IMG/VR virus record: IMGVR_UViG_3300045125_000026
Location: 1-28,066 of that record
DNA from: a virus
Reading direction: 5' to 3' (one strand)
DNA length: 28,066 nt
The position numbers were made by a program, and so were the translations under genes. Shown one piece after another: positions 1,288-22,173 of the stretch. Position 1 is the first letter of the stretch; each line of letters begins with the position of its first letter. The notes below the pieces were generated by a model, which ran no database searches, was not told the origin of the DNA, and saw only the letters and a list, made by a program, of their open reading frames with translations.

Positions 1288-1312
1288 TTATTTGCCTTTT
1301 GATATATACAAG

Positions 1313-1328
1313 TATAAAATTAAGCATA
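1313..1328 (+). promoter_or_regulatory. Possible leaderless promoter of the protease gene
   Basis: TATAAAAT (1313-1320) sits only 7 bases before the ATG at 1328, and no Shine-Dalgarno sequence precedes that ATG. A TTGCCT at 1292-1297 could be a -35, but the 15-base spacing is short. The layout matches the -10/ATG spacing of leaderless actinobacterial genes. It is weaker than the similar site at 20944. Confidence 0.35.
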
Positions 1329-2664
1329 TGAATATTGAAAAATCTCATTGGTCTTCCAATGGCGATAACATTACATTTATCAGTTCCATTTACTAAAGTT
1401 AATCGTGAAAAGAGAACCGTATCAGGTTTTGCAACACTAGACAATATAGATCAGACAGGCGATGTTGTTACATCAGAAGCAAGCATAAAAGCATTTGAAA
1501 ATTTTCGTGGAAACATTCGTGAAATGCATCAACCAACTGCAGTTGGTAAAGTTGTTTCATTTAAGCCAGAAACATACTATGATCCAAAATCAAAAGAATT
1601 TTATAATGGAGTTTATGTAGATGTATATGTATCAAAGGGTGCACAAGATACTTGGGAGAAATGTTCTTGACGGAACTCTTACAGGATTTTCAATTGGCGG
1701 AAAGATTAAAGATTCAGATAATGAAGTTAATAAAGTCAACAGGACAAGCTGTAAGATTTATCAAAGACTATGATCTTGATGGAACTTTCAATTGTTGATT
1801 CACCAGCAAATGAACTATGCAATGTTTTGTCTATTGCAAAAGATGAATGGCAACTGGTATTTAAAGGCATGGCAGCAGATGTTGTAACAGAAAATATTTT
1901 TTATTGTGCAGACAGTGATTCTGTGTTTATGTCAACAGAGAAAACATTTGATTCTCCAGTTACTGGAAAAGCCAGCAACATTAATTGGTTGGGTGAGAAT
2001 TCAGATGATGTAAACAAATCAAAAGAAATAGATAAGATTCTTGATTCATTTAAGAAATCAAGATTGACCGTTGCCTGATACACAAACAATTGCAAAACAG
2101 GCAAACGCAGAAGGAGGTAATGAAGTGTCAGAAGTACAAAGAAGAATGCAGTAGTTGCAGAAACTACTGCCGTGAAGAAACACCAGTAGTTGCTGAAGAA
2201 GCACAGCTGAAGCTCCATCAGTCAAGAATGACAGCACCAGCAGACGAGACGCTTCTGCCGAAACTCTGGAAAAAGCAGCCGATGTATCAGAAGTTATGGT
2301 TGATGAACCTGATTTTGCAAAGATGCTAGGCGATCTAAAAGGCTTTTTCTCAGAGACTCTTGAATAAGGCTTCAGAAGTCAAATGCTGCTCAAGTTACAG
2401 CTATTAAAGAAACAGTTGAAACATTTCAGCAAGAGCGTTGATGACTCGAATTTCAGAGTTGGCAGAACAACATAGCAGCACTTTCAGAGTGCTGTAGAAG
2501 ATATCAAGAACACGATTGATGGTGTAGAAAAGCGTGTTGACGCAGTAGAATCAGAAACTGCAATTAAGAAGTCCTCGGACCTTGGCGGGTCTCAGGAAGT
2601 TACAATCAAAAATCAAAATGGAACGGTTCTTTCCTCGGTTCCGTATAATGAATTAATTCAATAA
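1328..2664 (+). CDS. Prohead protease with C-terminal scaffold-like region (HK97 type)
   Basis: Serine protease of the HK97 prohead (U35/S78) type, which matures the capsid by cutting scaffold and shell proteins. The rebuilt N-terminus is MNIEKSHWSSNGDNITFI, then VPFTKVNREKRTVSGFATLD and DQTGDVV. Candidate catalytic residues are the His of REMHQPTAVGKV (about 1520-1555), the Ser of LTGFSIGGKIKD (about 1678-1710) and the acidic pair in MELSIVDSPANE (about 1780-1812); this order is typical of the family. The second half (about 2060-2660) is acidic and helical, with VEKRVDAVESETAIKKSSDL near the end, resembling the scaffold or delta domain fused to proteases in actinophages. It ends at tandem TAA TAA. 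Start 1328 is chosen because the frame matches the conserved N-terminus; a one-base frame break occurs about 1370. The region 2090-2500 is badly broken. Confidence 0.85.
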
Positions 2665-20600: not shown

Positions 20601-20930
20601 CCGTTGTAGATGGCGGCGTTGTTGAATATTCAACAGATAGTCCAGATAGTAGGGCAAAAAAGATATCCAGTGCAATTTGATTCTACCTGGATTCAATCTG
20701 CAACAGATGCAAAATCAGTGGCAGACTGGATTACATCCACGCAATTAAATAAAGGGCAGAAGCGTAGAAATGGAAGTTTTGGAAACCCTCTAATAAACGC
20801 CTGGAGATATCGTGGTATAAATTATCAATCACTAGATTTATCCACTACAAATGAAAAGTATATAGTAACTTCAGTTAGACTAGGATTTTCTCAGGGGGTG
20901 ACTACCAATATAATTTGTAGAGCTATTTAA
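17633..20930 (+). CDS. Tail hub / Tal-like minor tail protein
   Basis: About 1,095 residues, starting MISVSDEVKIYI at an ATGA overlap with GGAG just upstream (17624-17627). The front is beta-rich (YRPLKPGIKYYIYTSETSPG, YWLGPKNADISVSLEYFDNQ). The middle reads FLAVLELSPRWVIDISEDIQ, DFEIAKETTINSDSILPVGT, YYMVEWSLSQFDSASIRALD and TVWECLQDLCRDMQINMFVD, a hub-type region with the W--L-DL--A/DM--N-FVD helix and a FTNEE-SSG-L--Y-PNI segment. A laminin-G-like beta sandwich may lie about 19640-20230 (GFYSMGTRMFFDNQF, GGTLIKNTLTIFINGFRIDA). The C-terminus (WI then TSTQLNKGQKRRNGSFGNPL, YIVTSVRLGFSQGVTTNIIC, RAI) is the standard hub ending. It ends at TAA 20928-20930. Confidence 0.75.
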
Positions 20931-20943
20931 TATATTCTACAAA

Positions 20944-20961
20944 TGGTATAATGAATAAATG
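20944..20961 (+). promoter_or_regulatory. Extended -10 promoter with predicted leaderless start
   Basis: TGGTATAAT (20944-20952) is a consensus extended -10. Only six bases separate it from the ATG at 20959, so transcription would begin at or next to the start codon. No ribosome-binding site is present. This spacing is the hallmark of leaderless actinobacterial genes. Confidence 0.55.
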
Positions 20962-21286: not shown

Positions 21287-21310
21287 GCCAGTTTCTCAAG
21301 GAGGTACAGC

Positions 21311-22173
21311 ATGATAACTAAATTTGGTAAGAGATTCTTGCTAGATTTTATTGCAGGTAATAGGACTTTTTTTGACAAAACATTATCTGTTGGAATTGCA
21401 AAAGATGCAGAGTATGAATTGTCTGATACAAATAGCAGATTGGGGTTTGAATTTTATACTGTTCCAGTTCTATTTGGCGGCATAGATATAGACACATCTG
21501 TAAATCCATATACATATACTGCAATATATAGCACAAAGCTTCCTACAAATTTGGCGGGTAAAATAAATGAGATAGCCATATACTCCTGGAAGAAGATCAT
21601 CGTCTAACTCATATGGAAATCAATTTATAACCACATTTGAATCTCCATTTGAATGGACTCCATCGCCAGTATTAAATGAAATAGATTATAGAGTTGGAAA
21701 TAGTTCGTTAGATTTATCTTCAGATGGTACATCTGCAAAAGAATATATTGCAGTAATACCAAATTTTGATATGTCTGGATACAGCAATTTTGACACAATA
21801 TCATTTTCTTATAAAGTAAATGATTCAAATTTATCTTCAGTTAAAATTAAGATTATATAGTTCTGCAACAGATTATTATGAATTTATTTTTACAAATCAC
21901 ATAGTTGGATGGAATATAAAAGATATTCAATTAGCTGATATGACATCTAATGGAAATCCAGATTCTTCATTGATAAGCAAAATTGGAATAGTCATTACTC
22001 CAACAACATCATCTACATCTATTACATGTAGATGGTTTAAGAATAAATGATGAGGATACATTTGATCCAGCATACGGAATGATAGCAAGATCAAATATAA
22101 GACGAAATTGAAAAAGTAGCGGGCAGAGAATTAACAATAGAATATAAGTTGGATTTAAATTTTGGTGAGTTAA
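21311..22173 (+). CDS. Beta-rich minor tail protein
   Basis: About 287 residues. Start MITKFGKRFLLDFIAGNRTF has a strong AAGGAGGT ribosome-binding site (21298-21305). Residues 20-95 read DKTLSVGIAKDAEYELSDTN, LGFEFYTVPVLFGGIDIDTS and YTAIYSTKLPTNLAGKINEI, a beta-domain that resembles short tail-tip proteins. The second half (FDTISFSYKVNDSNLSSVKI, KLYSSATDYYEFIFTNHIVG, WNIKDIQLADMTSNGNPDSS, LISKIGIVITPTTSSTSI, VDGLRIND) has the strand order and closing V-DGLRI of jelly-roll carbohydrate-binding domains. It probably sits at the tail tip and may bind a surface sugar, an inference from fold pattern. Breaks near 21592, 21860, 22035 and 22100. In the raw frame there is no stop before the next ATG; removing one T gives GAG TAA at about 22170. 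Confidence 0.6.

Follow-up and report, generated by a model that had tools for sequence, protein, structure and literature searches.

A conserved -10 element predicted to open a leaderless transcription unit between tail hub and fibre-side genes in a group of apparently actinobacterial phages

The window analysed here is a viral record of 28,066 bases, and the features of the tail junction described here lie on its plus strand. The 3' part of a minor tail (hub-like) protein gene occupies 20610-20930 (phrog_10359, E 8e-10), with its stop TAA at 20928-20930. This gene is a homologue of Streptomyces phage minor tail proteins. Eleven bases further on lies the site AATGGTATAAT-GAATAA-ATG (20942-20961). 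The 11-mer AATGGTATAAT (20942-20952) reads as an extended -10 element, TGG followed by TATAAT, and contains the 9-mer TGGTATAAT at 20944-20952. It is followed by the six-base, A/T-rich spacer GAATAA (20953-20958) and by the ATG start codon of a small tail gene (20959-20961), where transcription is also predicted to begin, given the spacing from the -10. No Shine-Dalgarno sequence is present in 20931-20958, ahead of the small gene. The initial annotation had placed a TATAAT six bases before this ATG, and the sequence bears this out.

The small tail gene (20959 to approximately 21313) is broken by frameshifts in the window. It has a variable linker, with a proline run here, and a conserved C-terminal part. 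The ORF from 20959 ends after 19 codons (MTKKIIPGISTPIIGDEDR, then a stop), since the reading frames are broken throughout, and the remainder of what had been described as a small polyproline protein sits in other reading frames. That description holds in part: a proline run occurs in the small proteins of some relatives and is absent from others. The intact protein is roughly 100-160 aa long in relatives, and about 265 aa in one group (L059, L060, L065, L070, L074, L075 and L083), which has the same promoter; 10 of 80 loci carry the element upstream of a longer gene. As we read the alignments, the longer protein combines a stretch similar to the conserved C-terminal part with an extra domain after it. 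PHROGs and Pfam gave no informative match for the small protein (viral-contig members and Rhodococcus phage Trina), and the Streptomyces phage Faust counterpart, gp42, matches phrog_11696, whose function is unknown. A structure prediction from a 24-sequence alignment reached a mean pLDDT of 53 and a pTM of 0.18.

The Shine-Dalgarno sequence of the next gene, AAGGAGG (21298-21304), lies within the end of the small tail gene, and G013, a relative, is arranged alike, its next gene having AAGGAG. In the window and in relatives, AAGGAGG falls where the small protein has its conserved C-terminal QGG, whose conservation may be owed in part to the Shine-Dalgarno site of the next gene. This second gene of the unit (21311-22169) encodes a tail protein (phrog_9983) and is also frameshifted in the window, where the tail protein of a relative aligns across all three forward frames. 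The whole window (1-28066) is rich in frameshifts, with 64 ORFs of at least 60 aa and none above 319 aa, a pattern more suggestive of an indel-prone assembly than of biology.

Within the window the hexamer itself has no weight as evidence, since TATAAT is no commoner in this AT-rich DNA than in shuffled sequence (53 copies against 47.9 +/- 6.6). The same applies to TGGTATAAT with up to one mismatch (13 copies against 13.05). The exact 9-mer is unique in the window, and TATAAT-N6-ATG occurs once on the two strands together. A promoter scan of the window that required a -35 box did not report 20944-20961, a result that counts against reading it as a host promoter. A 9-bp inverted repeat, ATTTGTAGA (20913-20921) and TCTACAAAT (20936-20944), lies upstream of the -10 and touches it. 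Its fold has a z of -4.05 in the window, and the mean over 67 distinct junctions is -0.72, with many junctions having no hairpin at all; a hairpin or terminator was rejected as a conserved part of the locus. A strong upstream hairpin is also found in Muntaha, BillNye, Mildred21 and L028. Lineage-specific inverted repeats adjoin the promoter in the window (20913-20944) and at the Muntaha, BillNye and Coruscant junctions (L187, L182 and L184), and the Coruscant repeat (CCCCCAATT/AATTGGGGG) runs across the -10 itself.

Conservation of the junction was examined in viral contigs gathered through the neighbouring proteins, with no use of the motif. A first set, for which one search kept 80 out of 175 relatives, comprised 90 loci on 83 distinct contigs. 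A second, more divergent set of 80 out of 307 relatives, six of them already present, gave 74 new loci; 16 of these were on first-set contigs and were removed from the contig count, leaving 141 distinct contigs, counted by name. The element AATGGTATAAT precedes the ATG at the junction in all 90 first-set loci and is exact in 63 of the 74 second-set loci. The other 11 have one mismatch each, as AGTGGTATAAT (n=3), AATGGTAAAAT (n=3) or AATGATATAAT (n=5). Thus 141/141 distinct contigs lie within one mismatch of the 11-mer, 130 exactly and 11 with a single mismatch. An ATG lies 4-9 nt behind the element in all 141, which for the 11 inexact second-set loci was a search requirement. Over 29 first-set clusters plus the window (120-base regions, <85% identity), the eleven columns are invariant, and outside them mean pairwise identity is 38%. 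When the window is added to the first set, 83 of 91 rows have a gap of 6 nt to the ATG (seven have 7 nt, one has 5 nt); of the 63 exact second-set loci, 52 have 6 nt, six 7 nt and five 8 nt. Gaps of 5, 7 and 8 nt may correspond to a few messages with a one- or two-base leader.

The form of the element points to an extended -10 promoter. The TGn motif stands directly before TATAAT in 90/90 first-set loci, always as TGGTATAAT, and in 74/74 second-set loci as TGGTATAAT, TGATATAAT or TGGTAAAAT, and the extended -10 is still recognisable in the tolerated mismatches (AGTGG, TGATATAAT and TGGTAAAAT). In all 37 distinct upstream sequences from the viral contigs the best match to TTGACA at 16-18 bp was 2-3 of six bases, so that the TGn extension goes without a -35 there. 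In the first set the third G of TGG and the two preceding A vary no more than the core does. This constancy would exceed what a generic extended -10 needs, and it counts against a plain host-promoter reading. No Shine-Dalgarno sequence was found before the small gene in G001, G013, G027, G029, G032 and G033, nor in Faust. These junctions and that of the window thus combine a -10-like signal at the proper distance with the lack of a Shine-Dalgarno sequence, as in leaderless (TA-led) genes.

The cultured relatives carry the same arrangement in a different form. The capsid protein matches 136 phage records, 127 from Streptomyces and nine from Rhodococcus, with no others. Fourteen cultured phages were examined, 13 Streptomyces phages and the Rhodococcus phage Trina, limited to loci whose N-terminus fitted a text pattern. 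In all 14, TATAAT or TATGAT precedes the same start codon, at 6 nt in seven and 7 nt in seven. The comparison of this junction proposed with the initial annotation, for a conserved TATAAT and a 6-7-base gap, therefore came out positive in the 141 viral contigs and the 14 cultured phages, 6-7 nt being the dominant gap. The Stanwilliamsviridae Streptomyces phages and Trina share the gene order minor tail, small protein, tail protein, and the -10 6-7 nt ahead of the ATG of the small gene. They differ in detail: the junction of the Streptomyces phages (TATAAT-N6-ATG in Faust) lacks the TG extension and its TGG, whereas that of Trina is TGGTATGAT-N6-ATG, with TATGAT. Seven of the 14 (Faust, Francob, Blueeyedbeauty, BillNye, Muntaha, Emma1919 and Comrade) have TTGACT with a 17-bp spacer, read directly off the sequence. 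That one lineage has a -35 and the other a TG extension is as would be expected for one promoter maintained in two ways.

Leaderless genes appear to be a genome-wide class in these relatives. In a spacing histogram of six nearly whole relatives (853 ATG-start genes, from crude longest-ORF gene calls), a TATAAT ending exactly 6 nt before an early ATG was found for 33 genes, whereas the other distances averaged 3.7. No Shine-Dalgarno match was found for 42 of the 51 genes with TATAAT 5-8 nt upstream, compared with 384 of the 824 other genes. The head maturation protease gene of the window (1292-1330) has TTGCCT, 17 bp, TAAAAT, 7 nt and ATG, and in many relatives this gene likewise has TTGCCT, 17 bp and a -10-like hexamer with the ATG a few bases on. 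Of 21 listed copies of a lectin-like gene (Laminin_G_3), 15 have TATAAT near the ATG and six lack it. In the G013 table, which is built on chosen starts and misplaces that of the protease gene, TATAAT at 5-8 nt is found only for the small tail gene and the lectin-like gene. The structural region of Faust alternates Shine-Dalgarno-led genes with a few that have a -10 6-7 nt upstream, including gp42. A secondary leaderless promoter had been considered unusual in a late operon; that view is wrong for this group, where a leaderless-type -10 precedes dozens of genes, the head protease and lectin-like genes among them.

The most probable reading, in which we place high confidence, is that the site is a host SigA/HrdB-type promoter that starts a leaderless message for the small tail gene and the fibre-side genes, the latter translated via a Shine-Dalgarno site. 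A new transcription unit would open where the tail hub gene gives way to the fibre-side tail genes, with RNA polymerase reading the extended -10 TGGTATAAT without a -35 box. Transcription would start about seven bases downstream; at this spacing +1 falls on or beside the A of the ATG, and the message of the small gene should therefore be leaderless. The following tail gene, on the same message, would be translated from the AAGGAGG at the end of the small gene. In the available part of PMC3160421, -10-type signals near start codons are read as marks of leaderless genes, which make up more than 20% of genes in Actinobacteria, and in a polycistronic message no gene but the first can be of this kind. 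PMC4633059, in its accessible part, describes an ATG or GTG at the 5' end as necessary and sufficient in mycobacteria. A new transcript is therefore predicted here, and because a leaderless start depends on a 5'-terminal AUG, the small gene would be translated poorly from RNA reading through the hub gene. Dosage of the fibre side would in this way be set apart from that of the tail core. The layout is consistent with the separate control of the fibre genes that had been proposed, and the promoter is probably a genuine switch for the attachment proteins, given its retention in all related viruses examined.

Host SigA/HrdB is the likely reader, since no sigma-70 gene was found in the relatives. 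A regulon under a phage-encoded sigma-70 factor calls for the phage's own gene with region 2, and one family profile detected this in none of the 16 viral records and none of the 14 cultured phages, while it was positive in 10 of 14 control genomes. WhiB-family genes are present in 13/16 viral records (L396, L397 and 11 more) and 14/14 cultured relatives (W01-W14), and the WhiB profile was positive only in Corynebacterium among 14 control genomes. Together with the restriction of capsid matches to Streptomyces and Rhodococcus phages, this supports the actinobacterial host first suggested from the leaderless start. A search of genome contigs with the phage thioredoxin, in pursuit of the host, gave matches from mixed phyla. 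WhiB is not supported as the explanation for the missing -35, as 14/14 cultured phages carry the gene, whichever promoter type they have.

The constancy of the whole 11-mer leaves room for a more specialised reader. It is possible, though unlikely, that a phage-specific regulator, beyond host RNA polymerase alone, reads the exact AATGGTATAAT as a small regulon, made up of the fibre-side unit and the next downstream unit. The 11-mer is near-invariant at the tail site, while most other leaderless sites share TATAAT alone, and it occurs 69 times in 35 records, compared with once for the reversed control. Roughly 7-10 kb downstream of the tail site there is a second copy, ahead of a gene of 72-75 aa that has a Shine-Dalgarno sequence and is thus leadered; all 13 such loci retrieved (L302-L314) show this, as does G013 (G013:86107). 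The WhiB genes would offer a candidate regulator, but they are present with or without a -35 and so do not track promoter type, no sigma-70 gene was found in the 16 viral records and 14 cultured phages, and the Streptomyces phages carry a different upstream sequence at the same junction. A bolder version, which we regard as rather improbable, makes AATGGTATAAT a dedicated late element whose reader is the host SigA holoenzyme after alteration by a phage protein, for example the WhiB homologue. The element would activate the fibre side as a leaderless unit with its own timing, untranslatable from tail-core read-through, and then the next downstream unit. T4-type late promoters have the octamer TATAAATA as their -10 consensus. 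This type was rejected; the window site reads TATAATGA, and the bases after TATAAT are variable in relatives.

Three further readings were considered. Every exact copy of the 11-mer contains ATGGTATAA, so a translational signal could be imagined in which ATG GTA TAA serves as a mini-ORF of two codons, with ribosomes coupled from its stop to the ATG that follows. This is very unlikely: the ATG GTA codons are missing from the 13 Streptomyces phages, which nevertheless retain TATAAT and the gap of 6-7 nt, conservation also extends to the final T and the gap, and the same 11-mer also precedes genes having a Shine-Dalgarno site. The string sits exactly where the conserved tail core meets the variable fibre region, and in many relatives it is found again roughly 7-10 kb downstream, as might be expected of a DNA junction maintained for module swapping by recombination. 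Eleven bases are short for homologous exchange, however, spacing and start codon are conserved along with the string, and the head protease and lectin-like genes show similar -10/ATG layouts elsewhere; we give this reading very little credence. A chance TATAAT in an AT-rich genome would agree with the lack of enrichment in the window, but it is refuted by conservation in 141/141 viral contigs and 14/14 cultured phages examined, and its probability is close to nil.

The host-type leaderless promoter favoured here has counterparts in bacteria and phages. The leaderless (TA-led) genes of Actinobacteria have, according to the available text of PMC3160421, a TANNNT -10 about 10-12 bp before the start and no Shine-Dalgarno sequence, with TG before the -10 replacing the -35 in low-GC genomes; those are bacterial genes, whereas the present promoter is from a phage and lies within a late tail gene run. 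Cluster O mycobacteriophages such as Corndog, also actinobacterial phages, have predicted leaderless SigA-like promoters, and for Corndog PL1 and PR2 the predicted +1 is the first base of the start codon (PMC4351075, accessible part). The phages and genes differ, and the promoter described here faces along the operon, at the hub/fibre-side border, and is backed by conservation. A phage promoter with a leaderless transcript is also predicted for gene 90 of mycobacteriophage Adephagia, in a toxin-antitoxin region rather than among tail genes (PMC11373665, accessible part). Predicted leaderless promoters are thus already known in mycobacteriophages, and what stands out here is the unusually deep conservation.

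The literature searched yielded no 5'-end maps from infections with these phages. For a large group of uncultured phages, apparently of actinobacteria, the element offers a landmark in the transcription map, and it transfers to cultured Streptomyces and Rhodococcus phages, in which it is directly testable. Its position suggests that the attachment genes form their own transcription unit apart from the tail core. It also suggests that leaderless starts (TATAAT, 6 nt, ATG) should be looked for besides Shine-Dalgarno starts when these phages are annotated. As a separate observation, a Cas4/PD-(D/E)XK-type exonuclease gene in one relative (L097:6246-7031) has a TATAAT a few bases upstream of its start.
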